Of a stretch of DNA of 32,929 nt, positions 1 to 31,282 are shown piece by piece (within the stretch, counting starts at the first letter, position 1; every line of letters begins with the position of its first letter). This DNA comes from a virus: the IMG/VR virus record IMGVR_UViG_3300035698_023555, positions 1 to 32,929 of that record. One strand, written 5' to 3'. The notes beneath the pieces were generated by a model that was not told where the DNA came from, ran no database searches, and worked only from the letters and a program-made list of their open reading frames with translations. A program made the position numbers and the translations under genes.

Positions 1-66
1 AAAGTGAAAAGACCAGCTTTACCACTGTTATTAGCATTACCACTGGTGAGAACATCACATCAGTAA
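1..66 (-). repeat. DGR template repeat (TR), truncated by window edge
   Basis: This non-coding stretch lies just downstream of the adhesin gene and aligns without gaps to that gene's 3' end at an offset of 163 bases. Positions 1-55 match 164-218 except at 5, 19, 26, 29, 37, 38, 44 and 47. On the coding (minus) strand every one of these is an A in this copy and a non-A in the gene (A to G four times, A to T four times). None of the 41 non-A positions differs. This is the signature of adenine-specific mutagenic retrohoming from a TR to a VR. Positions 56-66 still align but include three non-A differences (56, 59, 63), so the 5' edge of the TR is probably near 55. The copy runs off the window at base 1, so its 3' end is not visible. 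Read in the VR frame it shows AAT, AAC and AGT codons, as usual in TRs. Confidence 0.9.
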
Positions 67-102
67 CATAAGACCCAAATATATCATATCATTCTTTAAT
101 GT

Positions 103-1371
103 TTAAAAGCATAGCCGAGCGCCGATAGTCGGATAAACGCTAGACCAAGGACCAGAAACATCCAAAGCGAAAAGACCAGCTATACCACCGTAATTAGCAA
201 AACCACCGGCGAGAACATAACGCCAATAATCACGCGTACTCTCACTATATTGTCAATAGTAATCAGAAATTAAATCTGAAGCACCACTAGCAGATGGAAT
301 AAACCCAACAGCATTTACTATGTCTCCAATATAACTTCCACTTGGTCCAATAAGAGGAGCATCACACAAATAAGTCATACTTCCAGATTGACTATCTTCA
401 AAATCGTTAATATTGTTTGATACATATACTGGTTGTGGAGCAGCTACTCCCGTTCATGTACCATCTCAAGCTATTCCATCTATAAACTTTCACACATTAC
501 CATATAAATTTTCTATTCCTCTATATGACATATAACTATTATTTTGATATCCTGTAGAATTATCTGCATTAGTAAAATTACCATCATTAACAGAGTTTCC
601 AGTAATACCTATATACCCCCCTACATTATAGGCTGATCACCCACCACTACCACTATCAGATGTAGTAGTTCTACCATTTCCAATTTTATCTTGTGAATCA
701 AAGTCTGCATATTCTATTAAATATAATAATTGTATAGCAGAACGTAAATAATAATCTTCTTGTCTTCACTTAGCGTTTCCCGTATTACGATTAGATGCAA
801 ATAGTCTAAAATGATTCCTTTGTGCATTTGTCAGCTTTGGTCCTGATGGAGTTTCTCCAGTCATATCCCGTTCTGTAGCTGGATAAGAGCCAGAAATAGA
901 ATATAATTTTCCAATTCCAGTATCATTATTATCGACATATCCTTCGAAGGCCCCATAATATCGATATTCCACTTCCGTTTCATCCTTTATAAAGGCTGGG
1001 TGTAAAGTATATCCCGTTAGATTTGCTAACGATACATAATAAGAGCGATCATCCGATGTATAGCTACTGCTATAATAAAATTTTGGTATTTCTACCATAA
1101 TTTGACCATCGGTTCCCGATAAATCACTAGCATCTCCATTTGCTTTATAAGCAGAATTAGAAGCAGATAAATAATAGTTAACGGTTCCATCATCGTTTAA
1201 TACACATCTTTTCATCTCACGTTGAATCGGCAATAATGCATCTGGAACCGCATCTCCTGCAGCATAATTAGAGACCGCACCTGATCTTGTGTAAGAATTG
1301 GTAGATTTGTTTCAAGATACTCCGTAGCTAGTTCAACTTAATTCATGTAATCCACTGTGTCCTATTTTCAT
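103..1371 (-). CDS. DGR-diversified tail adhesin (C-type lectin/FGE-like C-terminus), 422 aa
   Basis: Predicted receptor-binding virion protein. The ATG follows a good ribosome site (GAGGAATAAAAAATT) and the stop is TAA. Eight of ten Trp codons are TGA and two are TGG. The central part carries motifs I associate with gut-phage tail proteins of this type: TGYTLHPAFI near residue 125, then AIQLLYLIEYADFDSQ in the 210-230 region. The latter is preceded by NAKWRQED, in which the W is TGA. The C-terminal third has ENLYGNVWKFIDG, close to the GNVWEWV motif of the formylglycine-generating-enzyme/sulfatase-modifying fold, a subtype of the C-type-lectin fold used by DGR targets. The last ~40 residues are the variable repeat. 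It is the distal gene of the fibre operon and the template repeat follows directly, so the family and the DGR assignment support each other. The ligand is unknown; a cell-surface polysaccharide or protein is the usual target. Confidence 0.9.
106..225 (-). repeat. DGR variable repeat (VR) at the 3' end of the adhesin gene
   Basis: The segment 164-218 is the demonstrable partner of the template repeat. The remainder, down to the stop codon, is inferred to belong to the VR because the matching part of the TR is cut off by the window. It encodes roughly residues 385-421 of the adhesin, including GGFANYGGIAGLFALD and ending IGARLCF, the layout usual for C-type-lectin-fold DGR targets. Codons opposite template A are the diversified ones: ACC to GCC, AGT to GGT (twice), AAT to TTT, AAC to TAC, AAA to ATA and ACT to GCT. 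The G+C-rich stretch just before the stop (about 108-125) is where an initiation-of-mutagenic-homology element would be expected. That last point is inference. Confidence 0.85.
118..141. other. Interrupted inverted repeat near the VR 3' end
   Basis: On the plus strand AGCG (118-121) and CCGA (122-125) can pair with TCGG (129-132) and CGCT (138-141). This leaves a TAG loop and a five-base ATAAA bulge, giving an 8-bp interrupted hairpin. DNA hairpins or cruciforms at the 3' side of VRs aid target recognition in the Bordetella phage BPP-1 DGR. The position here, inside the last codons of the adhesin, is compatible with such a role, but the structure is short and could be chance. Confidence 0.35.
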
Positions 1372-3545: not shown

Positions 3546-4643
3546 TTATTTCTCCTTAAAACTTCTGAACCCTAGTTTCCAACCATTATCTAACCATTCT
3601 TGTGGTTCTTTAACCGTTTTATTTTTCTTCAGTTTTTCATTATATATTCACTTTTTCCCAAAATTTGGATGGTGTCCGATTCTTGTTTTATTTAATTTCC
3701 TGAGAGATTCAGATATATTTTTCTTATGTTCTTTTGATAAAGTTTTTCCTAATTGAGCCTTAGACATCTTTCTCTTGGATTCTTCGAGGTGTTTTTTACC
3801 AAGCATCCCAGCCTTCTTACCGAGGCGAGCCTCAGACATTTTCTTTAATGCTTCCTCTGAATATACTCCAATTTTACCTTTATTTCAAGGAATTCTACCT
3901 CTACTTTTCTCTGACATTTTTCTTCTAGACTCTTCTGTATGATGCTTACCATAAAAAGGATGATCCCTTCCAACAAGTTTTCCCTTTCTCGACTTTGATA
4001 TTCTTTTCTTAGTTTCTTCGGAGAGGTGTCGACCAATTTGTCTTTCGGACATTTCTTTTCTAATCTTTGGATCTGAAAAATACTTTTTGTTAGCTTCTGA
4101 TATTTTCTTTCTTGTCTCTTTGGTTACAATTCTTCCTTTACCGCTTCTAGATATTGCTTTTTTATGTTCTTCTGTTAGTTTTCTACCGGTTAGTGCTACT
4201 CGTATTTTTTCTTTAACTTCTTCAGTTCTATGTTTTCCATATAAGCAATGATTTTTACCACTTCGCTTTGCTATTGTTTCTGGACTATTCTTTTGTCCTT
4301 TACAAGCTTCTGACATTTTTCTTTTATATTCTTCTGTATGTTTTTTGCCTTTTCAATAATTTGCTAACCCTGCTTGTTGTCCACCAGTTATTAAATTATA
4401 CGTATCTGTTCTTTCTATAAATTCTTCATTGACTAATTCTATCTCTTTATCAATCATTTGCTGTATATTATTAAAGTCAAATAATACTTCTTTTTTAAAA
4501 TTATTTCGACCGTATTTCTTTATAGCTTTATTAAGAATGAATCCTGATCCCAAATAACTATCATTAATATTTTCTGTTCTGTGCAATCCAATATATATTT
4601 TATTATTCATTAAATTTGTTGTTTTATATACTAAGTAATGCAT
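3546..4643 (-). CDS. GIY-YIG homing endonuclease with NUMOD3 repeats (SegB-like), 365 aa
   Basis: Free-standing homing endonuclease predicted to cut intron- or gene-less alleles and spread itself. The N-terminus MHYLVYKTTNLMNNKIYIG is the GIY-YIG catalytic start. An ITGG motif near residue 86 closes the nuclease domain. From about residue 97 to 330 there is a run of NUMOD3-type DNA-binding motifs (patterns such as KHTEEYKRKMSEA and HLSEETKKRISKSRKGK). The C-terminus (EWLDNGWKLGFRSF) resembles the end of Seg-type enzymes. Three Trp codons are TGA (NYWKGKK, IPWNKGK, KKWIYN) and two are TGG, so the gene works only in a TGA=Trp genome. Its ATG overlaps the stop of the upstream LamG gene by one base, and its own stop is two bases from the next start. 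It is therefore embedded seamlessly in the fibre operon and probably translationally coupled. Confidence 0.92.
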
Positions 4644-5468: not shown

Positions 5469-8400
5469 TTATTCCCTAATCTTTTGTAATTTCTTGATGT
5501 CTTTTCTTTCGGCGTGAACCATAAAGAAACAATTTATACTATTTTTACGTTTGAATAACCCATTTACATCTAAATAAATTTTATTATCTTCTATCTTATC
5601 TACATAAATTTGCTGATATGAACCGATGGGTGTTATTTGGACTGAAATAGTCTCTTCATATATTAATCATTTCCACTCATCTGGAAGTTGAATAATTCAA
5701 TCATTTGTTAATCTACCTCTATAAGCTACTATATTTTCTGGTGCCTCAACAGCTCCGTACACGAGTTTTTTATCAGTACCGGGTATATTAACTACGAAAG
5801 ATTTTTGTGTAGCTTCGAGGGATCCGACAATAGAAAGAGTATCAGTATTATTATCTCAATTTAAATTACTATTATTTTCAATTAGTTGACCCGTAGCATC
5901 GGCAAAAGGTATTGAACCCTCGGTTAAATCTAAATCAATACTACCCGAGAAACTATCGGCATATACTATACCTGATGCAGAAATATCACCGGTAACTACT
6001 ACCTTATCTCCGTCTCATGTAAACTCACTACTTCCAGTAATCCCATTAGCACTAGAATAAACAGCGACATAATTATCAATTCCACCAGAACTACTTATAA
6101 AGGTTGCACTTGTATCTCATACTATTGGATTAATTTCATCTGTTTTGAATTGTCCATCACTACCTGATATAAATACTATATTACTCTCACCGCCTATAAT
6201 ATTTGAAGCATATATTTGATCAGAAGCTATAATATCACCACTAGCTGTTATACTAGAATTAACATATAAATCTCCTGTCATTGTATCACCTGATTTAGAT
6301 ACAAATTGAGCAGTAATTTCAGTTTCAGTATAGTATCTACCGTCTAAATCATAGGAACCACTATCGGTTGCATGGCCGTCTGAATCAAAGGTTAATGATT
6401 GAATAATATTACCATCAGATAAATTAATACTAATAGCACCTGCTACATCATGATTGATTACTCCACTGCTCCAAGATAATTTATCACCAGCGATACTACC
6501 ACTAACTGCTACAGTTTTGGCGGTAGTTCCATCATAAGTAAATGCTGTTATTCCATCGCCGTCTGTTAAATCTTCTAAATCAAAGGCTTCTGGATTCAAG
6601 TTTGTTAATCCATTTCCGTCTCCAGCAAAATGACTTGCTGAAACGAAACCAGAAGCTGAAATATTATCACTAGCTGTAATATCGTTAAATGTAACATTAT
6701 TATTAGTTCCTAGAGATTGTACAAAATCATAATCATCTATTAACACGGAACTTGTTGTTTCCTCATTAGTTACTCTAGTACTAAAACTAGCTGAATCTGA
6801 TTGAAGATCATCAATTTCACTTTCATTAGTTGTAAATCTTGTACTTATTGATTGACTAGTAGCTAATATATCAACACTATCAACAGTTCCACCTACATAA
6901 ATATCGTTGGTGACATCTATGTAATCAAATGAACCTGTCCCAGCTCTGACCTCTGATCACATCTTACCATCTGCCCCGAGCTCATAAACATTATTTGCAT
7001 CAGGATATAAACTACCTGTTGCTACAATACTTGCTGTTATTTCTTCTTTAGTTTGTATTTGTAGTATTTTATCGTCGCCTTCAGAAGCACCGGTATATAT
7101 AATTTCCATGTTTCTACCTGGAATAAATATTACATTTTCACCAGGTTCAATTGTTTTTTGTGAATATCCGCTACCACTTAGGTATCATATTGGTTTATTT
7201 GCAAGACTATATAATGAACTAGATTCTGTTGAATATTTCTCTATAGCAGGAGATAATGAAGTTGATATGTTGAGAGCTTCATTAGAAGCTGTAGTATTGG
7301 CATAGTCTTTAGTAGCTATTGACGATGATGATGTAGTTCTCCAAGTTGTATTCGATTCCCAGGAGCCAGTTTTATTAACATATTGTGATTTTTCACTTGA
7401 TCATAAATCTCAAGTCGGTTTATTAGTAACAATTGAGCCTGACGCATCAACACCATATGATATGTCGATAGCTAATGAACTAGATAATGAACTTGTAGCT
7501 GCATTGGTATAATCTTCTCCAGCTTCTTTGATAGAACCAGAGTTAGTGTTAAAGTATAATTCAGCAGCTTCTTTTATTGACCCTGAATTTGTATTAAAAT
7601 ATAATGAGGCTGTTTCATTGGCATAGTCTTTAATCGAACCGGAATTAGTATTAAAGTATAATTCGGCCTCAGCCGAAGCAGTCGTATTAGCATAGTCTTT
7701 TATTGAACCAGAATGATCATTAAAATAAACTGAAGCTGTTTCATTAGCATAAATTTTAGTGGCTATAGAAGATGACGATGTAGTTCTTCAAGTAGTGTTT
7801 AGTTCCCAACTTGCTGATTCAGCAGTCACTTTAATTTCTGTAGTCTCCCAAGAACCTGTTTTATTAACATATTGTGATTTTTCTTCAGATCATAAACTTC
7901 AATCTGAACCACTTATATCAATTAATGAACCGGTATAATTTCCAGCTATAACAGAGGCAGTATTATTAGTTTCAGTCTTATTGTAATAATTACTTTTTTC
8001 ATCATTTCACTCATCCCATTTAGAGCCACTTATATCAATTAATGAACTGGTATAATCACCTGCTATGATTGAAGCTGTGGTTTCGGCATAAGTTTTAGTT
8101 GCAAGGGAACCAGAAGTTTCAAACCATGAAGCTGAAGTTTCAGAACCTTTATCCCATTCAGAACCACTTATGGTAACTAATGAACTGGTATAATCTCCAG
8201 CTATGATTGAAGCAGTAGTTTCGGCATAAGTTTTTGTAGATAAAGACCCAGAAGTTTCAAACCATGAAGCTGAAGTAATTTTCGCAGAACTAGAAATATC
8301 ATTATACTCAACAGTATCGATTATTGCAGAACCAGTAATTGTACCTTCTATAATAAATCCTGGATTAATATGACCGCCTGTTAATAAAATACTAGAAGCA

Positions 8401-11400
8401 GTTACTTCGCCTGTTGGAGTTACTAAAAAATTAGAAGATGATATGAAATAAACACCCTCGCCTTCGTTACTTGTACCATCTATATAAAATTTTGTTCCTT
8501 GTTCTAATTTAGTGCCATTAATATTAAATCCGGCTATTTTACCAGCCGATGCGGTAATCTCACCAGTAGGTCTTACTAGAAATCCAGATGACGAAATAAA
8601 ATAATCGTCAGCAGTATCGTTATTTGTACTGCCAATATAGAATTTATCTGTACTTAACCTATCTGCGGCGAGTGTAAACCCGGCTATTGTTCCACCGGTA
8701 AAATGAACGTTAGAACCACTAATATCGCCGTCTGGAGTTACTTGAAACTTAGAGGAAGAAATAAAATAATCATTTCCCGACTCTTCAGTATTTCCGTCCA
8801 GATAATAATAGTTTCCGGCTTGTAATAATGTGTTTTCTACAGTAAATCCCCCGATATATCCTGAAGAAGCACTGATAAACCCAGATAAATGAACATTAGA
8901 AGCTGTTATATTACCTTCATTACTTACAAAGAAATTACTACTACTTATTTCTCCGTTACCTGTTAATTTTAAGTTAAGGTTTACTATTTCCTTATTAAGA
9001 ATATTTCAATCACCAATATAACCGGCAGAAGCGGAAATTGTTCCATCAAACCAAGCATTAGAAGCAGATACATTACCTGTTGGAGTTACTAAAAAATTAG
9101 AAGATGAAATAAAATAATCATCGGCGGCATCATTATTCGTACTACCTATATAAAAATTATTTGTTTGTAATCTATCTGACTGTATTGTGAATCCTGCGAT
9201 ATGACCAGTTGAAGCAGAAATAGTTCCTGATATATCCACATCAGAAGCAGTTAAATCACCATTTTCTGATACATAAAAATTAGATGATGAAATAACTCCA
9301 GAACCCGATAACATCATATTATTGTTATCAGATTGTAATCTGTCACTAAGTATCTGTCATCCACCAATTCAACCAGCTGAAGCAGTAATACTACCACTTA
9401 TGAATACACCAGAGTCATCAAGTCTGAATCCTGATGAAGATATTGTTAATAAATTATTAGATGCAGATATATAAGCATCAGTATTTCCAACATAGAAATT
9501 GGGTGTAATAAGTTCTACATTTGTTCCGCTGACATAGAAATTTTCAACATTAATGTCAACACTAGAACCACTAATCAAAGCATTGCTTGCTGTGATATTA
9601 CCGTCTGTGATATCGAAACCGCTACCTGAGATGTGGCCACCTGATTGTACCGTAAGAATATCTTTTATATCTAAAGTATACAGTTCACCAGAATTAGCTT
9701 TAATTGAACCACTAAGTATAGCATCTGATGCTGTAATGTTACCACTTACATCAACTTGGAAATTAGACGATGAAATAACATATGGGCCAGCGGGTCTTAG
9801 TTCAAATAGATTAGATGAATCTCTTAAATAACCATCTTCTAACTCTCAGCCAGAAAGAGATCCAGTATTAACATATATAAATGAACCAGATAGCTCACCG
9901 CCTATGTATACTGAACCACTAAAATAAGCATTGGATGCAGTTAGATCACCATCTTCCGACACGTAGAAATTAGAAGAAGATATAACTCCACTACCTGATA
10001 ACATCATATTATTGTTTTGTGATTGTAATCTATCAGAAAGTATTTGCCATTCACCAATATATCCTGCAGAAGCTGTTATTGACCCACTGATAATAATATT
10101 ACCACTAGAGTCTAAACTAAATCCTGATCCAGAAATAACTAAATTATTACTTGAAGCAGAAATATAAGTACTGGTCGAATCACCTATAAAGAAATTAGGT
10201 GCTAAAATTTCTATATTTGAACCACTTATTTTAATATTTGTTCCAGAACCAGATATAAAAGTATTATCATCACCGAAATAGAAATCGTTAGTTTTTGCAT
10301 ATAACCCATTATCATCAAATGTTAATCTCTCTCCAGTTGGGTCTCCTACTAATAAGCTACTTGCCGTAATAGAACCGCTGATATTTGCATTACCTGATGA
10401 ATCAACACTAAAATTAGATGCACTTATTTCAATATTATCATTAATATACGAAATGTATGCCCCAGAAGAACTACCAATTGCAAATTCACCTGAGCCGGAT
10501 AAGTATATTCCGTTATAATTTGTAAACGATTGGGCATCTGCATTATTACCAAGTTTTATCCTTCCATCTTCACCAGAATCTACAACTATTGTAGATGCAC
10601 TTAAATGAAAATTATCTGTTGTTAGGTCTATATCAGAAGCTGTAACTATTAAATTATCGGATTTTATGTAAAGATTTGAACCAGATCACCATAGATATTC
10701 ATCAGGTCCACCAATTTTGAACTCTTCATTATCATATCAATAATTGTCATCAGTAAGTCATAAACCGTCTCTACTACCGTTTACATTCTGCCCTAATTTA
10801 AAATTACCAGCATGTACTATCCCTGTAAACGAACCGGTCCTAGCATAAATACTTCCTTCAAAATAGCCGTTTTTAGTATATAATCCGTTGCGCTTACCAT
10901 CATTATCATATGTGTAAGTTGGACTTAATCCTGATAGATCACCAAGTCTGACTAATAATTCTGTATCATCTACACTACTACCTGTTCTTTCTCAAACATC
11001 TATATATGGTGTATAATCATCACTAGGATCAGCATTCATATGAATATAGCCAGAACCTGATACTCCTAATGAAACTATTACTTGCCCTTCAGATATAACA
11101 GGTATAACCCCATCCATATTTATTCCATCAGTAAACAGTCAAGAATAAAGATCTTCATATTCTGGTGGTGTATTCACCGCTCTATCTAAAGTCAATATAC
11201 TTTCGGATAAATTTACATTTGTTATCTGGGCTATTTCACGTCAAAATCCACTAGCTCCTATTGCTTTCATAACAACAAATTCATCTACCACAAATCCGCC
11301 AGCATTCTCAACAGGAAATAATGATTGAGTAGGATAAATATCACTACCTGTCACAACTGTTGCATTTGAAATAATAACCTGTCCGCCTACAGCACTAATA

Positions 11401-14400
11401 GTATCTTTTTCAAAAACGGTAGTAGACAGAGTACCCCTAATTACGGCATTTTCGAATTCTGCTCTGCCGTCACTTGTTATTTGCCAACCTTTTGCTCCAG
11501 GAAGACCCGAACTAATAAAATCATTTGTTTGTAATGTACCATTACTATTTATTCTAATATTATTACTATCTAGATATGTGTCAGTTATACTTCATCCAGC
11601 AACTTTACCACCCGTAAATAATACTTGGGATCCTGTAATATTACCAACCGCATCAACTTTAAAATTAGAAGATGAAATGAAATAATCACTCTCCCCTGTA
11701 GCACCGCCGTCTAATTGATATTCAGATCCGTGTTTTAATACATCACCATCGATATCTCATGCTGCTATCTTTCCACCAGTAAACAATACTTGAGAGCCGG
11801 TTACATCTCCTTGTTCAGTCACATAAAAATTAGAAGCAGAAATAACACCACTACCCGATAGCATCATATTATTACCGGCTGATTCTAATCTATCAGATAA
11901 TATTTTTCAACCGCCAATATATCCAGAAGAAGCTGAAATTGAACCACTTATAATTACTCCATCATCAGACAAATAAAAACCGGATGAAGATATAAATATT
12001 TCATTATTAGATGCTGAGATATACGCACTATCATTTCCTACAAAGAAATTAGGAGTTATTAATTCTACACTTGTTCCACTAACATAAAAGTTTTCTACAT
12101 TTATACTGACATCGGAACCGCTAATCAAAGCAGACGAAGCAGTAATTACGCCATCAGTTGTGGCAATGAATTTATTATTTATATTGATAGAGCCGCTGTA
12201 TAATGTGAACCCTGTATCATTTAAAGTATACGCATTATTTGCAGTAGTTATTTCACCACCATTATCAACTGTTATTGTACCAGATACAAATAAATTTCCT
12301 AAAGTTCCTTCTTGTGCATGAATTGTACCAGAAATAAATGCATTAGTAGCATACATACCACCATCAACATATACTCTAAACTTAGCAGAGCTCTCTGCAG
12401 TAGGATCAGCTGTAGAATGAGTGTAAGCTCCCGCATAAAAAGATATTGCATTAGAACTAGTTGAAGACATCAGTCCTACATGTTGTCAATTTGTTAAAGT
12501 ATCATTTCTTATTCTATCACTATTTATCCTCCACCCACCTATAGAACCTGTTGCCGCTGTAATTTCTCCTTCTATCACTGCACCAGAAACTATTAATAAT
12601 CCAGATGAAGAAACCGCAAAATTTGACCCAAAACGAACATAATAACCATCCCCTGGAGTAAAATCAATATAATACCCCGTAGTTTCACCCTGAAGATTAG
12701 GATTATATATTTTAGATCCAGCAGCATCTAGTATGATATTTTGACCAACTAACATACTAGAACTTATTTGTCAGTCACCAATAGCTCCTTCACTAGCACT
12801 AACATAACCTAATAATCTTGCGTTTGAAGCTGTCATGTTACCGCTAGAATCAACTTGGAAATTAGAAGACGAAATAACATACGGTCCAGCTGGTCTCAAC
12901 TCGAATAAGTTATTGTTATCTCTTAAGTAACCATCTTGAAGCTCTCACCCTGAAAGTGAACCGGTGTTAACATAAATAAAAGAACCAGATAGCTCACCAC
13001 CTATAAATACTGAACCACTAAAATACGCGTTGGACCCAGTTAAATCACCCTCTTCTGATACATAAAAATTAGAAGCACTGATGACACCTGATCCAGATAA
13101 CATCATTTTATCATTACTAGATATAAGTTTGTCGGATTGAATCTGTCAACCACCAATAGAACCACTAATCGCTGAAATGGAACCACTGATAATGACATCA
13201 GAACCAATATATAATTCACTACCACTATTATATACTATACCTTCTGGGCCGCCTAAACTGAAACTTACTTCATTGCTATCTGTTGTTACTCAATAGTTAT
13301 CACCATCTTCAAAATATATACCATCAGTAGTACCTAATACATTTATACCTAATTCTAAATTACCAACGTGAACTTTACCCTCGAATGAACCGGTTTGGGC
13401 AACTATAGCTCCCTCAAAATAACCATTTTTAGTATATAGACCATAAGACCTATCTGATCCGTATTGTCTTAATATATTTGCAATACCACTCAAATCACCT
13501 AATCTTACTATTAAATCTGTATCGTTTAAATTACTTCCGGTCCTTTCAATTATATCAATATAGGGAGTCGAAGTATCTGTAGGATTAGCATTTAAAAGTA
13601 TATATCCCGAACCCGATACCCCATAAGAAACTATTACTTGACCTTGATAATAAGCTTGAGGCGTTGAACTAGCGTATCCTCGTTGGAGATATAGTTCGTT
13701 TGAACCTGTTCCTTCAACCAATACATACTCAATATTTGTTTCTTTTTGAACTTGTAATATTTCATTTACAACAAATCCACTTTCATTATCAACACTTCAA
13801 GTTGTTTCAGAATCACTTACAGTATAAGGTTGTGGGGGGTCCGTCATCTGGTTCATAGACCCACTTAGTATGGTCGAATTAGCAATTCATAATTGTCCAC
13901 CAACAGCATTAATAGTATCTTTTTCGAATACCGTTGTTTTTAGTGTTCCTCTAATAACTGCATCATTAAATTCAGCATGACCTATATTATCAATTTGTCA
14001 ACCTTGTATATTTGTTATAAAGTCCGAAGTACCTATCAAACCACTACTATCTAATATTATATTTGAAGAACTAATTGTTGTTGAATCAATATACCAACCA
14101 CCAACACGACCCTTACTAGAACTTAGAAATCCTAATTTGTCAACTGAGAATCCTGCTGAGGCTTTATCTGTATCAGAAGTACTATCGGCTCCTGCATAAA
14201 ATCTGAGATTTCCATCAGTAGACATTCCAACGTATGTACCAGCTTCATTAGTTTTTTGTAATGAGGCTGTAGTAATTTCTCATCCAGATAATTCACCTTT
14301 TTCAGGGTATAGATATGCATAAGAACCAGTCCCTGATGATTTTGTTCAAATTCATGTGTCATATAAACTTCTATCTTTATAAGAAGCAGTAATGTAAACT

Positions 14401-17400
14401 TCCCCTCTATCTTCACTTCCAACTGAAACTAATTCAAATTTATTGTTATTAGTTTTTATTGTAAAGTCACCCGACGAACTATCATATACAAAAATATAAT
14501 CGTCTGTTATATTTCTAGACACCCTAGCAATTGCATCGTTATAATATACAGAAGCTGTTACTTCACACCCCTTTACAGAGTAATTTCATGCATCATCGCT
14601 TCTACTCATAAACAGAGTATATCGTTCTGGTCTAACTATAAGTTGTGGATAGTTGAGTATATTTAAATCTATTGAAGAAGTAGTTTCAACATCACCCACT
14701 GAAGCTAATATTATTACGCTACTACTAATTGTTCCATTGCAATACGATGCCGATAAAACATTACTATATAGTTCTGCTCTATTTCCATTCGTAGAATAAT
14801 AATTTGAATCTACTGAATTTCCATCGTTATATTCAAAACCTCAAGATATATTTCCAATATCGTTAAATGGATTAAGTTCTTCGGCTTTTAAAGACGCAGT
14901 TTCTTTACCTTTAATATCGAATGTATATCAATCTGCATCAAAAGAATTTACATTTGAAGTTATTATTAATCCAATGCTACTGGTCGGAATAGGCTCTTTT
15001 GATGCTTCCCATGTTACTATATTATAACCTATCTCTTCCTCATTATGAGAAGCGGTTATATAAATTTCTCCTTTTCTGATATTGTTAAAGTTAATACTAC
15101 TACTTATTACACAATATTCATTGTAATCTCCCGAAATATTTAGTTCGAAAGCATTAGAGGATGAAGTATATGTAAATAAACAGTCTGAGGTTACGATCCC
15201 TCTACCATAAGAAACCGAGGAAGTAACACCGGTAGGATCTATATAGTAACTAGCTTTATCAACAGAATCATGAGGAAAGATTAAATTTTGACGGTCCGAA
15301 AAAACTCTGTATCCTAGATCTCTTAGTGTTGATTCTATGGAGCTTATTCCTTCAAGCGTTAAATAACTGGCGTGTACATAAATACTGCCACTAATAGTAC
15401 TGTTGTTATAAGATTCTGAAACTGCATCCATATAAAGTTCGGCTGTGTTATCCCCATTATCAAGATAAAAATTACTTGATACATCACCACCACCTTTATA
15501 TTGAAACGATCAAGTTACTGATCCTGCCGGGGTTGTTTCTTGTTTGTTTATATTTGTTGAAAAAGATGCTGTGGATACGGTTACTGCTTCCAATGTATGT
15601 CTATCTATTTCTCAAGTTAAGGTATCAGATTTAATATATAATTCAGGTGCAACCTTATCATCTCTAACTCATCCACATGATGTATCATTAAGATTTATTG
15701 TTTCACCCGTTTCTTCATCTTCACCAGATGCTGATATATAAATTCTTCCTTTTATTGCTTCTGATTTAATCCAATCAATACTGAATTTTCTTGAATCTAT
15801 ATTATCAATAGTAAAATCTGCTGAACTGGTTGTAATCAAAAATTCTCAACCAGCATAACTACCAATTTCATTAGTAGAAATTCCTGTGTTTGTGTCTGAA
15901 GTTTTTTGGTAAATTGATGCCGTAAAACTTCCTGAATTTAAATTTGTCTCATTACCAAGTCAATCAAATGGAATTATGGCTAATGCTGGAGATACTTTAC
16001 ATCAATAATTTGCTGTATCACTATATTTTTTTCATATTATTAAAGATTGTGTAACGCTAGTTGCTATCGGCGTGTAATATACACCAAATTTTATCGTACT
16101 ATCTGCCGAACCACTTGAAATTCCACCCAATAATGATGCAGAATATTCACCCGAAGAATTAATTGATGCAGTGTCAACCAGTGAACCAGTAGACACTACT
16201 GAAAAAATACAATCCGTAACATAATTAACTTCTTGAGCATTATAATATAATTTAAAATTACCATTACAATTATCATAACTTCCACTATTACCTAAATAAT
16301 CTGTATTAACAAAAAACATAGATGGAACCAAATCTCAATTCAATGCATCGCCAGGAGTTGACGAACCAGAAAATCTAATATTATCAACTTTTGAAATAAA
16401 CGGTGCCATATTATTATTTGAATCGAAAAATTCTGTTTTGAAATTTAAAACGTCGTCAATTTCAAAAGTAGGCATTGGTACAACAAAATTATATCTATCC
16501 GGAGAAAATCCAGTTTCTTGATCTACTTTTAACGAAACCTTTGATAAATAATAATTACCGCCTTGGGTTTCAATACGAATCGAACCGGAACCATCAACAT
16601 CTGCTAGAAAAGGTATTGAAATATTTTGTTCGTTAATAACAGTTTTAGATGTATTTGAATAAATTAATTTACCAGAACCAAATTTATTATCACCAAATCC
16701 TGAACCAGACATATATATTTCAAATTTTTGATCAGCTGTTGTTGGAATTCCATAAAGTGAAAACGTTAATCTATATTCACCGTTTTCATAAACTTTTGAT
16801 TCTGAAACATAAGTAATAGAATTAAAAGTTGGAGAATCAAATTGCATCGCATCTATGTATTTATTACTATCATGGGTTAAAGATATAGTGTTTGTGACTC
16901 ACCAATTATCGATTGTATCTTGGTCGTAAAAATATCCAGTTCTTGTGTTTTCTGGAAGTGAACTTGCATCTACTAAAAGTTCTTTACCTTCAACTATTGA
17001 ATCGTTAAGAAGTACATAATCAGAATGTCCTAGCGCCCCTTGACTTTTAAGATAAGTTTTTATTCTATATATTTCTCCAGAGAATGTATCTATGTCATCT
17101 AAATTTATATTTGCATATGATTTATAATTACTGCCTGTATAATATGCTGGTACGTTTTCGTATGACATTGTATATTCTTGTGCTTTAAAATTAGTTATAA
17201 CTTGGGAATCCGCTTCAGTATTATAATAAGGAGTTACTACATATGTACTACCTGTTGTAATAATATTGTCAATTTTTGTAGTATAACTTAAATCAGGAAC
17301 AGTTAAAGTTCCACCGGCCATATTATATGTAAGTGTATTATCATCAAAAGTTAATTGATATTGTTTAACTTTATTGCTTCATAGGCCATCTAATTTACTA

Positions 17401-17906
17401 CCACTAATTATACTTGTTGTTTCTCCATCAGTAAAACTACGACTAAGATATGGCACACGCTTTTCAGCTATTGTCATTATCGGATCATTATAAAATCTTA
17501 TAGGACTTGTATTTCTAAGTGGTTTATTTATTATTATATTTCTTTGGTATCTAACATTAAATTTCCCTTTCCATTCTTTAGGAACATCCTTTGCAATACC
17601 AACTATTGTTAATAAGGCTTCTCCGTTTTTTACATCATCATAGATGACCATAGAAGCACGTCTTAAATAGCCTTCTCTGTATTTCGGAACGTTTGTATAT
17701 ATAATATTATTTTGTGAATCTAATAATTCTATGCGTATTTCACTATCAAAAACTAACTTATCATTCGTAACGTCGATTAAAAATGAATGTTTTCCTGTTC
17801 CAATCATATCTGGAACATCATAGACTTTAATATAATCATTAAATTTATCTTCTAATCAAATTTTGGCGTCTTTTAATCCTTGATAATTACTGATAGTTTT
17901 TCTCAA
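5469..17906 (-). CDS. Giant tail fibre/adhesin, about 4145 aa
   Basis: A single frame runs from a TTG start (GGAG seven bases upstream; the nearby ATG is in another frame and hits a stop after eight codons) to a TAA. It is uninterrupted if TGA is Trp. By hand I count about 50 TGA and 20 TGG Trp codons. Residues ~1-200 resemble the N-terminal virion-anchoring part of large T4-like fibre proteins. Residues ~200-1100 are beta-rich sandwich-type repeats. Residues ~1100-3270 are modular repeats built from short motifs (MMLSGSGVISSSNFYVS, GYIGGWQILSDRL, ITASN, ISGSISAS), as in long triple-beta fibres. Residues ~3270-3560 are Ala/Thr/Ser-rich repeats such as LYFNTNSGSIK. The last ~120 residues start at KSFVVNIPGTDKKLVYGAVE and match the conserved terminal domain found on many phage fibres (K-x-F-x-I-x-H-P-...-E-x-P-E-...-Y-x-G). 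It follows the terminator and AT-rich box that open this module. Receptor unknown. Confidence 0.88.
7540..7720 (-). repeat. Short repeats encoding LYFNTNSGSIK in the giant fibre
   Basis: The plus-strand text 'ttaaagtataattc' preceded by variants of 'attgaaccagaattagta' recurs several times between about 7540 and 7720. It encodes four near-identical copies of LYFNTNSGSIK separated by DYANETAS or EAAE spacers. The spacing is irregular (roughly 20 to 30 residues). This is a low-complexity, helix-prone section between the beta-repeat shaft and the C-terminal part of the fibre. Confidence 0.7.
7924..8278 (-). repeat. Tandem repeats (117- and 138-bp spacing) in the giant fibre
   Basis: The plus-strand sequence aatgaactggtataat (or aatgaaccggtataat) begins at 7924, 8041 and 8179, giving spacings of 117 and 138 bases, both multiples of three. 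The protein repeats are built from SWFETSGSL-TKTYAETTAS and IIAGDYTSSL-ISGS-W. The last two copies differ at only a few bases, so the duplication is relatively recent and the tract may vary in length. Confidence 0.75.
9650..11620 (-). repeat. Internal duplication of the giant fibre, copy 2
   Basis: This part of the giant gene repeats the module order of the block at about 12840-14110. Shared landmarks in order are AVIRGTL-TTVFEKDTI-AVGGQ, GQVIVS-GVSGSGYI, ERTGS, VRLGDLSG, LYTKNGYFEG, MMLSGSGVIS-SNFYVSE, GSFIYVNTGSLSGWEL and LFELRPAGPYVISSSNFQV. Copy 2 is longer because extra NFFVG/YISAS modules sit between the VRLGDLSG and MMLSGSG sections. Limits are approximate. Confidence 0.7.
12840..14110 (-). 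repeat. Internal duplication of the giant fibre, copy 1
   Basis: N-terminal copy of the duplicated shaft section. The 24-residue stretch from GSFIYVNTG through WEL into LFELRPAGPYV is nearly identical to copy 2, while the linking segments have diverged. This suggests a large tandem duplication of the shaft followed by divergence, with some gene conversion in the most conserved part. Limits are approximate. Confidence 0.7.
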
Positions 17907-18016: not shown

Positions 18017-21000
18017 TTATTCAATCATTATATTGCTGAATCCATCATCATCAACAGTTATCATATATGCACTATCAACAATTTCTTTTATTGAATTTAT
18101 ATGTGTTATCAACAAAGCAAAATCATACTCCATACTTAAATATTCCAGTATTTTGTTAGCTGAAGCTAAATGATCCTCATCAAATTTACCCCATCCTTCA
18201 TCAATTATTATAAAATTAGACACACTAATATTCGTTATTTTAGATATAGCTATTCTTATCGCCAAACTAGTTACAAACGACTCAAATCCAGAACATAGTT
18301 CTATCGGCCATTCTCCTCTTTCGCCTTTAACAATATACGCATTGATATTTTTGTCTTCTAATTCTATCCTCAGTGTAAAGTCAACTAATAGAGACAAAAC
18401 CTCGTTAGTTACTTGTTCTAATATTGGGATAATATCATTTAATAACTGTAAGGGTATTCCATTTTTATGCACAGCAGAAGTATAATAATCAAATAAAATT
18501 ATTTTGTCATTCAACACATTCATCTGATCTACATCATCTTTGGCTTGTTGTAGTTTTGATTCAATTACAGCCTTTTCTGATTTCATATCGGATATAGTAT
18601 TAATAATGACATCTGTGATCTCCTCTTGTTTCGCTATATCTCTACCTATTGACTCTATTATTTCTTCCGTTTTCTCGTTTTTCTTTATACTCTCTTCGTT
18701 CTTACGATAATTTTCTATATTTTTATTAATACTAGCTAGTATGTTTTTAGATTCTACTAGTCTTATATCAATGTCTTTATCAGTATTTTCTATAGAGTTT
18801 TTCAGATTCAATTCTTCTAATTGGATGTTCATTTTAGCTGTTTCTATATTTCTATCAGACGTCGCTTTCTTGGATTTTTCACCTTGTATCTTTAATTTAT
18901 ACTCGTCAATCTCTTTACCAAACGCTTCTAATTCTTTTAATAGCTTGTCGACTTTGGCTTTCTTGGTTTCTAGCGCGCTTTTACTTTTTATTTTCGCGAT
19001 AATTTTTTCCAGTTTATCTCTTGTGGCTGCGAATTTACTCTTCTGCTCTTCAATATCTTTTTTAGTTTCTATAGCATCAAGAGTGAATGGGTTTGCCATA
19101 CAAAATTTACAATTTTCATCATATTCCAGAGTCAATAGAGTTTTAACTTGTTTGGTTTTATTATCAATTTCTATTTTATTTTTTTCGTATTCATTCTTTA
19201 ATTCTTTACCTTCTTCAACTAACTCTAAATATTTATCATATTTATCTATTATATCCTCATGACCCATATCCTCCAGATCTTTAGTTATCTTTTCTTTGTT
19301 CTCTTCTAGAGAATTACGTGTTTCGTTAATTACTTTGAGTCTGTTGTCATGGGTTTCGGACTTCATCTCTTCTTCTTCGATCTCTGTATTCAATTCTGCT
19401 ATTTTTTTCTCAGTCTGTTGTTTCTTAATGACCTTATATTCTTTAAATTTACTTATATCATCTGTCACAACTATTTTTTCTTTCTTCAGCTGTTCCTCTA
19501 AGATGTCGATGTTTAATACTTCATCTATAGTTATTAGATCTTTTGTTGCTTCATTTAATTTATTACGTAGAACTAAATGTTTTTTACTTTCTATCGATTG
19601 TTTATGGATCTCATCTTTTAATAACTCTTCATTCGAGCCTAGAGATTTAGTCAGGTCTTCTATAACTTCTTGTATATTTTTTGTCTCGTATACATCTAAG
19701 GCTGCTTTGTGTTTTAATAATCGTTTATTTCCTAGTTTATATAAATCGTCGAAGATATCTATGCCGTGTAGCATTTGTTGTGATATAGACTTTTTTCTTT
19801 CTGCTTGTTTTTGGTAAATTAATCCCTCTTTATTATCCTGTAACGAAATAACAGTAGTTACTATATCATCGTATTTACCAAACATTTTTCTAATTATTTT
19901 GTTGGTCTCATCAATGTCTTTACCGTTTAATGATATTTCTTGATCATCTTTCATTTTCCACAAATTTAAAGTACTCGAGACACTAGTTCCTTTTTTATCA
20001 CCAGTTCTTTTTATGTAGTGTATTTCACCACCAAAGTCGAATTTAAATTTACAACTGAAGTTTTCCTTTCTATTATTTAATATATTTATTTTCTTTTGGG
20101 TGGGTCTTCCGCATTTTTCGTATATACAGTATAAAAAAACATCTACAATGGAAGATTTCCCTTGAAAATTCCCGGCGAACAATCCTACAATATTATCAAG
20201 TATAGAAAAATCTATATAATTCCCTTCGCCAAAAACGAACATATTATCAAATTCGAGGCTCAGCGGTTTCCACTGGACTCTGCTTGATCCTTCACTCTTA
20301 TCTATTTGTTCATTCAGTTGTGTGTTTACTTTCATTATTTCATCGGCAAGTTCTTTAGTTATACTATATTTAGTTTTTAAATATTCGATAATTATCTTAT
20401 TTTGGTAATTAGTATCTAATAAGTCGTTCTTGTTAAAAGATTCTGTTATAGCTTCTAACTTAGTCGATCCCTTCTTCACTATAGAATACCCTGCAATCTG
20501 ATGGAACTTTCTGTAGGTTGTCAATACTTTGTTGAACTCTGCTATTGATAGATCATTCAGAACGAATCGTATAATTGGAGCCTCGGGAATATCATCAGGT
20601 TCGTGTATTCCGTCTTTGTCTACATTTACTTGTATATACCCTCTTCTGTTCGGTATTTTAATAAGCTTATGACTGATTTTTTTATCTGTTATTTTCCATT
20701 CCACAAAGCCATGCTCTCTTAATGATTCTCCATGATTCTGCTGAAGGAGTGAACTCGGGTAAACTATATTTCCGATGGATTGAAATTTGTGAATATCACC
20801 TAGCAGAACGGCATCAAAATTACTAAAGGTTTTTATATTAAAGTTATCATTCTCAAAGGTAAATCCATATTCGTTCACGGACCCATTAAACCTACCATGA
20901 TATGTTGCCAATTTAAATTTATCTTTATTTAATAATTTTGATGATATTGGTACTTGATTATAAACGGATGAATGGGCAATCGATAAATTACTGAATTCTA

Positions 21001-21397
21001 AGATCTCGGTATCCTTGGAATATATTACAGGACAGTCTTTAAGAAATTCAACTACAGGGGTTATTGCATCCATTCTCTTCTTATTTCTCATTAACATATC
21101 ATGATTTCCAGGTATTATTATAACAGGAGCGATATTACTTAAATTTCTTAGAAACCTTTCACCATAATACACTAGTTCAGGTGATAATATATTATAGGAG
21201 TGAAATAAGTCCCCAGCTATAAATATTATAGAATTTTCAGTACTTCTAGCACGTAATTCTTTATATAAAGTCTCAAATACCTCGTTATATTCGTCTTGCC
21301 TATTATATAGTCTCAAGTGTATATCAGCTAGATGAAATATCTTATCTATCGGGCTTTCTATAAGATTCGTACAATCTTTGATTTTTATTGTTTCCAT
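18017..21397 (-). CDS. Single-chain Mre11-Rad50 (SbcD-SbcC / T4 gp47-gp46) fusion, 1126 aa
   Basis: Predicted double-strand-break nuclease-ATPase of recombination-dependent replication. Residues 1-~250 are the Mre11/SbcD calcineurin-like phosphoesterase with all motifs visible: D25-x-H27, GDLFH (62-66), GNHD (97-100), a YHGRF motif and LLGDIH. After a linker, residues ~385-1126 are Rad50/SbcC. They hold a Walker A AGNFQGKSS near 406, long coiled-coil arms on either side of a zinc hook CKFC near 763, an ABC signature-like CSGFESF near 1036 and Walker B NFIIIDEG near 1066. T4 and bacteria encode these as two adjacent genes in the same order (47 then 46), so this looks like an in-frame fusion. 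Ribosome site GAGGTG; stop TAA. All five Trp codons are TGG and none is TGA, unlike the structural genes. It is the last gene of its operon and is followed by a terminator. Confidence 0.93.
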   Translation of the reverse strand: METIKIKDCTNLIESPIDKIFHLADIHLRLYNRQDEYNEVFETLYKELRARSTENSIIFIAGDLFHSYNILSPELVYYGERFLRNLSNIAPVIIIPGNHDMLMRNKKRMDAITPVVEFLKDCPVIYSKDTEILEFSNLSIAHSSVYNQVPISSKLLNKDKFKLATYHGRFNGSVNEYGFTFENDNFNIKTFSNFDAVLLGDIHKFQSIGNIVYPSSLLQQNHGESLREHGFVEWKITDKKISHKLIKIPNRRGYIQVNVDKDGIHEPDDIPEAPIIRFVLNDLSIAEFNKVLTTYRKFHQIAGYSIVKKGSTKLEAITESFNKNDLLDTNYQNKIIIEYLKTKYSITKELADEIMKVNTQLNEQIDKSEGSSRVQWKPLSLEFDNMFVFGEGNYIDFSILDNIVGLFAGNFQGKSSIVDVFLYCIYEKCGRPTQKKINILNNRKENFSCKFKFDFGGEIHYIKRTGDKKGTSVSSTLNLWKMKDDQEISLNGKDIDETNKIIRKMFGKYDDIVTTVISLQDNKEGLIYQKQAERKKSISQQMLHGIDIFDDLYKLGNKRLLKHKAALDVYETKNIQEVIEDLTKSLGSNEELLKDEIHKQSIESKKHLVLRNKLNEATKDLITIDEVLNIDILEEQLKKEKIVVTDDISKFKEYKVIKKQQTEKKIAELNTEIEEEEMKSETHDNRLKVINETRNSLEENKEKITKDLEDMGHEDIIDKYDKYLELVEEGKELKNEYEKNKIEIDNKTKQVKTLLTLEYDENCKFCMANPFTLDAIETKKDIEEQKSKFAATRDKLEKIIAKIKSKSALETKKAKVDKLLKELEAFGKEIDEYKLKIQGEKSKKATSDRNIETAKMNIQLEELNLKNSIENTDKDIDIRLVESKNILASINKNIENYRKNEESIKKNEKTEEIIESIGRDIAKQEEITDVIINTISDMKSEKAVIESKLQQAKDDVDQMNVLNDKIILFDYYTSAVHKNGIPLQLLNDIIPILEQVTNEVLSLLVDFTLRIELEDKNINAYIVKGERGEWPIELCSGFESFVTSLAIRIAISKITNISVSNFIIIDEGWGKFDEDHLASANKILEYLSMEYDFALLITHINSIKEIVDSAYMITVDDDGFSNIMIE

Positions 21398-21411
21398 TTT
21401 AACACCTCACT

Positions 21412-21921
21412 TTAGCTCCATGTTATTTGATTTTTTTCGTTTCCTGGGAATGAATATCTATATCTATATGGTTTTATTTTGATATTAAATATTTTTTTGT
21501 TCTTATATGTTTCGCCGGCCCCCGACTTTACGTAAGCTAGAGTCATGTGTGGTTCGTAATCAGGATAATCTGAAGTATAATCAAAATTATTTCTGACCTT
21601 CTTATTTAACTTTGTTAGATTTGGTGAATCAATTTTAAATACTACAACATCATAAATTTCGTTTTCAAAGATATCAAATTTACTTATTGTCGCCACGAGG
21701 TCGTTTATATCCGGAGTAATTTTTTTAAGTTTATCTAAGTCAATATTTTCGTGAAAACCGTATAGAATAGAAATGTGTGGTTTATCTTCTAAACCGGGGT
21801 CCCCAGTTCTATCATTATATATATCATTTTTATCTATTGCTAGATCTAATAACTCTTCTCCATTGGTTATTTTAAAATCAACCATTAAACACCCATAAGG
21901 ATAGTTTGCATTTGTTGGCAT
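21412..21921 (-). CDS. 2H phosphoesterase (2',5' RNA ligase-like), 169 aa
   Basis: Two H-x-S/T motifs of the 2H superfamily are present, HISILYG near residue 49 and HMTLAYV near residue 125, spaced as in the family. Length fits a single-domain enzyme. 2H enzymes act on 2',3'-cyclic phosphates or 2'-5' linkages in RNA or cyclic nucleotides. Phage members include the anti-CBASS enzyme Acb1 and RNA-repair-type proteins of unknown role. The single Trp is TGG. The ATG follows GGGGTAAAG, and the gene sits 14 bases upstream of the Mre11-Rad50 fusion in the same operon. The exact substrate cannot be told from sequence alone. Confidence 0.82.
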   Translation of the reverse strand: MPTNANYPYGCLMVDFKITNGEELLDLAIDKNDIYNDRTGDPGLEDKPHISILYGFHENIDLDKLKKITPDINDLVATISKFDIFENEIYDVVVFKIDSPNLTKLNKKVRNNFDYTSDYPDYEPHMTLAYVKSGAGETYKNKKIFNIKIKPYRYRYSFPGNEKNQITWS

Positions 21922-27766: not shown

Positions 27767-30700
27767 CTACTCTACTTTTAAGTGCACCAGCCCGTCATCT
27801 TTAACTGTTACTTTATTCTGTTCATTAACCGATTCTTGGACAGGTTTATCCAAATTTGGTGTAGTTTTACTAGTTTGTAAACAACCATCGTATCTAGCTC
27901 TATTTCAACCTGTGGATTGATCTCTATAATATTTAAAATGGTTTCAACGATATCCGATTAAATTATCACCTATCACGTCAGTTGGGGTGTCAGGATAATT
28001 AGAACCCGTAATATATACATCGTAAATCGGTGTAAAAGACCCTGTACTAGATAAAGCGTTGGACGAAGTATTATTGAAATTACAAATAGGATAATGCATA
28101 CCCTGTATCGCGTCTCGTTCTCAATAAGGGTTGATAGTAGACGAATACGAGCTAGAAAATATTACATTATAATATTCATATACACTTCCGTTATATACAC
28201 TTTCGGTAAATTCTCCTAACGTAGCTTCATATGATAAATATTCTCCAGAAGCAGACAAATAATTACTTTGAGATATTGTTCCAAATTTATCTATACTGTT
28301 TCCTGATGCAGACAAATAATTACTTTGAGATATTGTTCCAAATTTATCTATACTGTTTCCTGATGCAGACAGATATAAACTTTCTGAAACAATTCCAAAT
28401 TTATCTATACTGTTTCCTGATGCAGACAGATATAAACTTTCTGAAACAATTGCGAATTTATCTGCATTAGAAGCTGTTACAATATATACATCAGTTTCAT
28501 CTATGGTTGCTGATAACGACATATTTTCTATACTTGCTGTGTGCCATCTTATTTTTGATCGATCTAAGATATGTGGTTCAATACTAACACCAGTTATGAC
28601 CAATGACCTCGCTGGTACCATTTTTTTTATTATGTCACCTAATGATTGATCGTATAATTTTATTAATTGTATATAATCTCAGAAATTATTAGCATTGTCA
28701 TATTTTCCTCAATAATTTTTATTAGCAATAGCAAGACCTGAATATTTATCATTTCACATGTCACCTGGATCGCCAATAAAATCATCAAAATTATAATCCG
28801 CGTATTGAGCTATTATATCCATATTTATTGTTTCAACGGGTGAATATTGTATACCTATTTTATTTGAATCTCGTGTAGCGTCTTTAAACTCGCCACTCTC
28901 AACACTCGAATTAGGATCTAAATTGGCTCGTAGGCTACAACTTTCGATTCTAATTTTATTAGAGTTATAACCTATACCTATTATAGGTGTTGTCGCACTC
29001 ATATCTTGAATATAATACTCATAATTATATGGATAAGCGGTAACGTCAGAATACCCAACACACTGGCCTTGATTTAGCCAATCTTGATTAGACTTAATAT
29101 CTGATACATAACTAACCCCGGCTGGACCATGATTAAGTGCATCGTCAAATGAATATCTAGTAATCAAATCATCGTATGATGATGAAATACTGCTACCGAT
29201 ATTTATAGATCTTATAAATCTAGAATGATTATTAAAATTATGAATAGTTGGTATACTACTTCACAACCTAAATTCTTGTATATTTCCAACAAAACTTCCA
29301 CTAGTTATATAAATAGATGTATTTGATTCTCAGGATTGTGTATTCATAGATCCACTGAAATACGCACTATAGTTTATCGTATCTCCGTTCGTCTGGTTAG
29401 AGTATACGTAGAATTGTGATCCGGAACCTATCATTACATTTCAGAAGGTCCCGTCAAAATAAGGTAGAGCAGTAGATGATGATAAAAGCGATCCGCTAAA
29501 ATCTTCGTAAACTAACCACCCTTTGTCAGACCCACTGTGTAATAAATATAAGCTAGAAGATTCCGCTCCATTAAATGATAATAAAGGTTCAATTGTGGAA
29601 TATGTTCCGGACCCAGTTACTTTAAATCTTAATTCTATGGCTTCTGGCTTTATACTATTCGGGTAGAAACTAGATGTTACATAATTTGTAGACTTGACTA
29701 TTAAGGCATGGTTTAGACTTTGAAAATCATAGTGACTGTATCCATCATTCGATCCACTAATCTGTGGTCCGCCATATTCTCTAATTTTCAGTATTGTGCT
29801 AGGTATACCATAACAATTCAACAAAGCAGTAATACCGCGTTTAGTACCTTTCGCCTTTAATAGATACGGTAAATTATTTAATATACGATTCCATACTTCG
29901 TAAGTCATGTCGCTAGATGGTACAGACCTTATTGGATCGGTTATAGATCCAGTAGATATATAACTACCAGTAGAATCAGAACCTATCGAATATTTTCACA
30001 GATCGTCTAATGACTTTCCGTTTACTAAATCAACACCGAAGGACTTAACAACAGAATCTATTATGTCGTTTGATACCCCTTTATTAATGTCGTTTTCTCT
30101 CTCGTATAATTGTTCTAATCTTTTAATATATAGTCAGTGAACATCAAAGTATTGACCAACCATGTTTAAAAATGTAATATATTCATCGTTGTAGTCATCA
30201 TATAGAACGTGTTCTGGTAATGTATATTTTAATTGATGAACGTTATCGCGGTCATAAGTATCTGATAAATCTAAAATATCACTATACCATGATATGACTT
30301 CAGATCCTGTTGTTGGATAATTTACATATGGATGATCCGAGCTAACTTTTGGTCATGGGGTTATACTATGAGTTCCATAACTATCTGAATAGGCCGAGCC
30401 ACTATTATAATATAAATATCGCTCGAATCCATCGAGACCACCTAGCAGATTATTCTTTTTATAATCAACTGTTAATTTACTTTCTGATACCGCCGTAGTG
30501 GATTGAGACACACTAGAGTATCATGCACTTTGGGATGTATATAGTTCCATTAATTGCATTTTATAATGAAAATTTTCTATTCTATTTCTAGCATTACTAA
30601 AGTGTATATAATTTTCAAATGAAGTATAATCTACATTTAATTTTATTCCTTCTAGAGAACTTTGGCTTAAGTAAGTAGTTACTAGTGTTTCTGAAGTAGA

Positions 30701-31282
30701 TGAATTTGTCGAAAGGACATCATCTCAACTTTTGTAATCCACAGAATTTTCTGATATTTTGTTAATATCTATATCAAAATTCGGTACTAACGTTTGCTCT
30801 GGTATTTCGTCTTCTATAGTATCTATTAATTCTATTTCTGTTTCTATCGGAGACGTCAAGTATTTAGATATTCATAATTGATCTTTTATAACAATTTCTG
30901 ATGGTAGAGGTTGATATAGTTTTAAAACATAAGAACCTCTATTCGAATTTAATATTTCTTCTGTATCTCCGACCTCACCGGTGGTATCAAATAGTCAATT
31001 TGTGATAAGAAATAATCTATTTTCTCCTAGATTCATAACATAATTATTAATTTTATCTATTTCAGAAGAATTGAATTCAACTCATTGTTCTGGAAAATTA
31101 TTTTCAACAGGCCTTATTCTTATCTCTGTTCTGGAACGAGAAATTTCATCTATATATACTCTGCCTGTCTCTTGTGATCCTAAAATATCTCTCACAATAT
31201 TATAGACAAGTTTAAATTTACCGTTTCTTATGTCGGTATTTAATAAGTTATTTTTGTTATAGAATCTAATTTTTCTTCCCAT
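27767..31282 (-). CDS. Large tail/baseplate protein with P2 gpI-like motif and lectin-like domain, 1171 aa
   Basis: Read through many TGA=Trp codons; stop TAG. Residues ~375-505 contain FDVHWLYIKRLEQLYERE, then SMVW-type helices and LPYLLKAKGTKRGITALL, the KGT(K/R)R-A-L core of the P2 gpI/tail-protein family that links baseplate to fibres. Residues ~505-690 form a concanavalin-A-like domain (ALIVKSTNYVTSSFYPNS ... GNIQEFRLW). Residues ~936-1011 are four 19-residue tandem repeats (FGIVSESLYLSASGNSIDK type). The start follows a 17-base gap and a weak ribosome site. I recognise similar ~1000-1200-aa proteins from large T4-like marine and gut phages. A baseplate-periphery role connecting fibres is likely but not proven. 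Confidence 0.82.
28251..28478 (-). repeat. 57-bp tandem repeat, four copies, in the 1171-aa tail gene
   Basis: Units start at 28251, 28308, 28365 and 28422 with exact 57-base spacing and encode 19 residues each. Units 1 and 2 share the text gcagacaaataattactttg. Units 3 and 4 share gcagacagatataaactttc. The remaining half (ccaaatttatctatactg) is common to units 1-3, and unit 4 has diverged. The two near-identical pairs suggest stepwise slippage or unequal exchange. Confidence 0.95.

Follow-up and report, generated by a model that had tools for sequence, protein, structure and literature searches.

The left end of the window (the whole linear record of 32,929 bases that was analyzed here) most probably carries a phage diversity-generating retroelement (DGR) that is cut off on its left side, a reading to which we assign a probability of about 0.96. 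Phages use DGRs to diversify the tip of the tail protein with which they bind the host. In the proposed mechanism, a reverse transcriptase (RT) encoded beyond base 1 would copy RNA made from the template repeat (TR), misincorporating opposite its adenines, and the mutated cDNA would replace the variable repeat (VR) at the 3′ end of a tail protein gene (positions 103 to 1371, minus strand). The resulting changes would alter residues on the binding surface of a tip with a C-type lectin fold and hence the attachment of the phage to its host, with the tip of the tail protein presumably acting in host binding. About half of the TR is missing from the contig, which counts against this explanation.

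The initial annotation had reported that bases 1 to 55 match bases 164 to 218 with eight differences, all at template adenines, at a chance of about 2.5 in a million. Ungapped re-alignment gave the same coordinates and the same eight mismatches, and the true repeat proved to be longer. Read on the coding (minus) strand, all eight mismatches in the core have A in the downstream copy, and the reverse never occurs; with A at 14 of the 55 positions of the TR core, the recomputed hypergeometric P value for 8/8 is 2.5e-6. On the coding strand, the TR core (positions 55 to 1) reads ATGTTCTCACCAGTGGTAATGCTAATAACAGTGGTAAAGCTGGTCTTTTCACTTT, and the VR core (positions 218 to 164) reads ATGTTCTCGCCGGTGGTTTTGCTAATTACGGTGGTATAGCTGGTCTTTTCGCTTT. 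The match extends more weakly to positions 1 to 66 and 164 to 229 (minus strand), with 12 mismatches, 9 of them at A, and the three non-A differences are confined to the 5′ edge of the 66-base repeat. The VR lies inside the gene at 103 to 1371, and the TR, of which the contig end at base 1 leaves only the 5′ part, lies in noncoding DNA at positions 1 to 66 (minus strand), separated from the stop codon of the gene by a short noncoding spacer (positions 67 to 102, minus strand). When the whole window was scanned on either strand, the VR had no non-A mismatches to the 55-nt template, compared with 17 for the runner-up. Tandem repeats elsewhere, in coding regions with periods of 57 and 138, do not favor template A over other bases.

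In relatives of the phage, the repeat reaches about as far as the stop codon and spans 107 to 128 nt in most cases. Thus, approximately 60 nt of template are missing beyond base 1. Judging from the extent of the VR in these relatives, positions 103 to 163 (minus strand), up to the stop codon, probably hold the remainder of the VR together with the initiation-of-mutagenic-homing (IMH) region, and the matching part of the TR would lie off the contig. The predicted fold of positions 67 to 165 is no more structured than those of shuffled sequences (z = −0.93), and no hairpin beyond chance expectation was found downstream of the VR.

Comparison of 80 loci with homologues of the target gene revealed de novo that 42 of them carry a TR on the same strand as the homologous VR and downstream of it. 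These 42 viral contigs share one layout, with the VR at the gene end and the TR usually 140 to 205 nt downstream; the start-to-start spacing between VR and TR has a median of 170 nt (n = 41; total range, 95 to 223), and that in the window is 163 nt. Pooled over the pairs of the relatives, 907 of 945 mismatches fall at template A, a proportion that is partly selected, since the score used to detect TRs tolerated A mismatches. However, selection by this score does not explain the scarcity of non-A differences over 107 to 128 nt or the constant position of the repeat. The assignment of a DGR TR/VR pair to the left edge made in the initial annotation thus stands on the restriction of differences to A, on the uniqueness of the pair within the window, and on the equal layout of homologous loci. 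Two of the closest records (L002 and L003), however, lack TR and RT matches in their available sequence, which weighs against the DGR reading. A degenerate DNA search of viral contigs for sequences close to the TR returned none, and no contig nearly identical to the window emerged. Large repeats of a different kind were observed near the target homologue in another contig (L056, positions 3917 to 4522; 219 nt with 5 mismatches); their direction is not that of an ordinary TR/VR pair.

No RT gene was found within the 32,929 bases; since the window ends inside the TR, none is to be expected there. The RT of this phage very likely lies to the left of base 1, as the initial annotation predicted, because the homologous loci have an RT after the TR on the same strand. 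Matches to RVT_1 (PF00078) above the Pfam cutoff are present in 32 of 43 records of relatives, and the motif IGNY[LTMI]SQ occurs in the open reading frame (ORF) directly after the TR at 36 of the 42 TR-bearing loci, with a YCDD site also present in most of these 36 ORFs. IGNYxSQ (GxxxSQ) is the form that motif 4 takes in DGR RTs. The RT of one relative (L007) matches phrog_1423, annotated as reverse transcriptase (E = 2.5e-117), and its best match in the PDB is 8ub7 (E = 2.9e-32), which we take to be the RT of the BPP-1 DGR. An Avd-like gene (PF05635) was not found beside the RT in 25 relatives, in a search that had no positive control and in which control genomes were also silent. Avd or a similar accessory protein is not present in all DGRs.

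Turnover of the VR can be seen between relatives that are ~99% identical and whose contigs come from different samples: strong divergence is limited to the VR and falls nearly always at template A. One pair (L049 and L052) has 19 differences in the VR (18 at TR adenines), 1 in the TR, and 17 across the other 3046 nt, and another (L050 and L061) has 21 in the VR (18 at template A), 0 in the TR, and 7 in the rest. The DGR of the phage studied here may likewise be active at present.

The VR forms the 3′ end of a gene for a 422-amino-acid protein that belongs to the tail protein family phrog_5302 (E = 2.2e-78) and whose closest relatives are only ~50% identical. A profile of the family (40 members) matches one solved structure, 5vf4 (E = 1.5e-9), which is also the best structural match (E = 9.9e-10) of the AlphaFold model of the protein (pLDDT, 85.8; pTM, 0.90). 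Both matches bear out the FGE-type C-type lectin layout that the initial annotation had read from the C terminus, so that the VR sits at the C-terminal end of a protein with a predicted C-type lectin fold. Weaker matches of the model, after 5vf4, are to Mtd variants (E = 0.009 to 0.05) and a formylglycine-generating enzyme. The TM-scores of 0.45 to 0.51 between the model and its fold matches result from a conserved core around which the insertions differ, and we do not claim that the match spans the full length.

The standard genetic code breaks the target gene at eight in-frame TGA codons, and the 422-amino-acid frame requires TGA to be read as Trp. In an alignment with 66 homologues, three of the TGA columns hold Trp in 63/66, 63/66, and 57/66 sequences. 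A search with a 218-amino-acid structural protein of the window found a single TGA-recoded relative, L112, the contig of which stops short of the DGR region, and 15 of the 17 TGA codons in the gene at 27767 to 31282 face Trp in L112, itself read with TGA as Trp. TGA is therefore read as Trp and not as Gly, and code 25 was rejected on these same counts. For a 1171-amino-acid structural protein, no relatives were found in viral contigs. Genes of structural type use TGA more often than TGG (about 107 to 41), whereas an SbcC/D-like gene (positions 18017 to 21397) has TGG only (5) and the genes of DNA type together have 3 TGA to 8 TGG (Fisher P = 0.004, with the genes grouped by the author). This codon pattern fits a recoding concentrated in late genes. 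Searches of the window for tRNAs, including suppressor tRNAs, and for known RNA families returned none.

Recoding also bears on the repeats themselves. The TR has a TGA at bases 60 to 62, opposite the TGG of Trp codon 383 in the VR, but it cannot be claimed as a product of the DGR because the 5′ edge in which it sits also contains non-A differences. It is an unlikely proposition that recoding and the DGR interact, such that A mutagenesis could make or pass through TGA in the VR while translation continues, giving a wider set of mutable codons than in a phage with the standard code. The visible core shows no sign that the TR has adapted to the recoded code: only AAA in it could yield a stop codon by A mutation, as is likewise the case in the standard-code relatives.

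Three other explanations of the repeats were weighed. The pair could be a remnant, in which TR and VR persist with frozen differences after the RT was lost or died; such a history would accord with the invisibility of an RT in the window and with the 11 of 43 records of relatives that have no RT match, although most of them are perhaps truncated or come from contigs in which no TR was found. We regard it as unlikely, since a 55-nt core with eight A differences and no others has accumulated no ordinary decay, and the RT is kept right after the TR in most relatives. Much less probable still is an artifact of assembly, whereby positions 1 to 66 would be no template but a VR allele from the population put in the wrong place. 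Repeats are a frequent site of contig breaks, and the present contig does end inside a repeat. However, the differences run in one direction only, and a second VR allele would not have A at every differing site; furthermore, the 163-nt spacing falls within the range of the relatives, the flank at 67 to 102 is unique and noncoding, and the copy at 1 to 66 resembles the TRs of other phages (AAT GCT AAT AAC AGT), being closer to those of relatives than the VR is to theirs in 30 of 41 cases. Chance, or an ordinary duplication of the gene end, might be entertained because the window has other tandem repeats, but the restriction to A and the recurrence of the layout at 42 homologous loci leave it a negligible probability, and the comparative evidence already refutes it.

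Taken as a DGR, the locus is of a known type. Among solved structures, the one nearest to the target in both sequence profile and fold is TaqVP (PDB 5VF4), an FGE-subtype variable protein of a Thermus aquaticus DGR (PMC6328139), although identity over the fold match is only ~16% and TaqVP is cellular, in contrast to the phage tail family protein in the window. The DGR of Bordetella phage BPP-1 is alike in its TR/VR pair, adenine mutagenesis, and lectin-fold target at the tail tip (Mtd), but Mtd matches the target model weakly. Metagenomic viral DGRs with lectin-fold tail targets have been well surveyed by Roux et al. in 2021 (PMC8144416), and their adenine bias, C-terminal VR, C-type lectin fold, and viral tail targets show no substantial difference from what is described here. 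DGRs in phages with TGA as a Trp codon have also been published, namely for Lera and ct1yV3, two Zeta crAss-like phages (PMC12386605), which likewise combine a tail fiber DGR of the C-type lectin type with an RT bearing GxxxSQ (for the window, seen in the RTs of relatives only). Those phages differ in being crAss-like phages of the human gut that have Avd and three TR/VR pairs, whereas structural and recombination genes of the window have their matches in Microcystis phage Mel-JY01, Flavobacterium phages, and huge phages. The locus is thus an ordinary phage DGR in a TGA-recoded phage of another lineage, and its coexistence with recoding is the one mildly unusual trait. This lineage, with TGA recoding and with structural and recombination genes like those of Mel-JY01 and huge phages, lengthens the list of phage lineages in which a DGR diversifies a tail adhesin. 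In such a recoded phage, gene callers that use the standard code split the target gene and could overlook the cassette. Neither the added lineage nor the gene-calling point alters current knowledge of DGRs.

Several other genes in the window have features of their own. An ORF at 3546 to 4643, between tail fiber genes, contains six NUMOD3 motifs and is of homing endonuclease type. The open frame at 5469 to 17807 spans 4112 amino acids with 50 in-frame TGA codons and many repeated stretches and probably encodes a giant tail fiber. In the SbcC/D-like gene, one ORF (positions 18017 to 21421) unites an SMC/SbcC-type ATPase with a calcineurin-like phosphoesterase (an SbcD-SbcC fusion by Pfam) and is 31% identical over 98% to its counterpart in Microcystis phage Mel-JY01.
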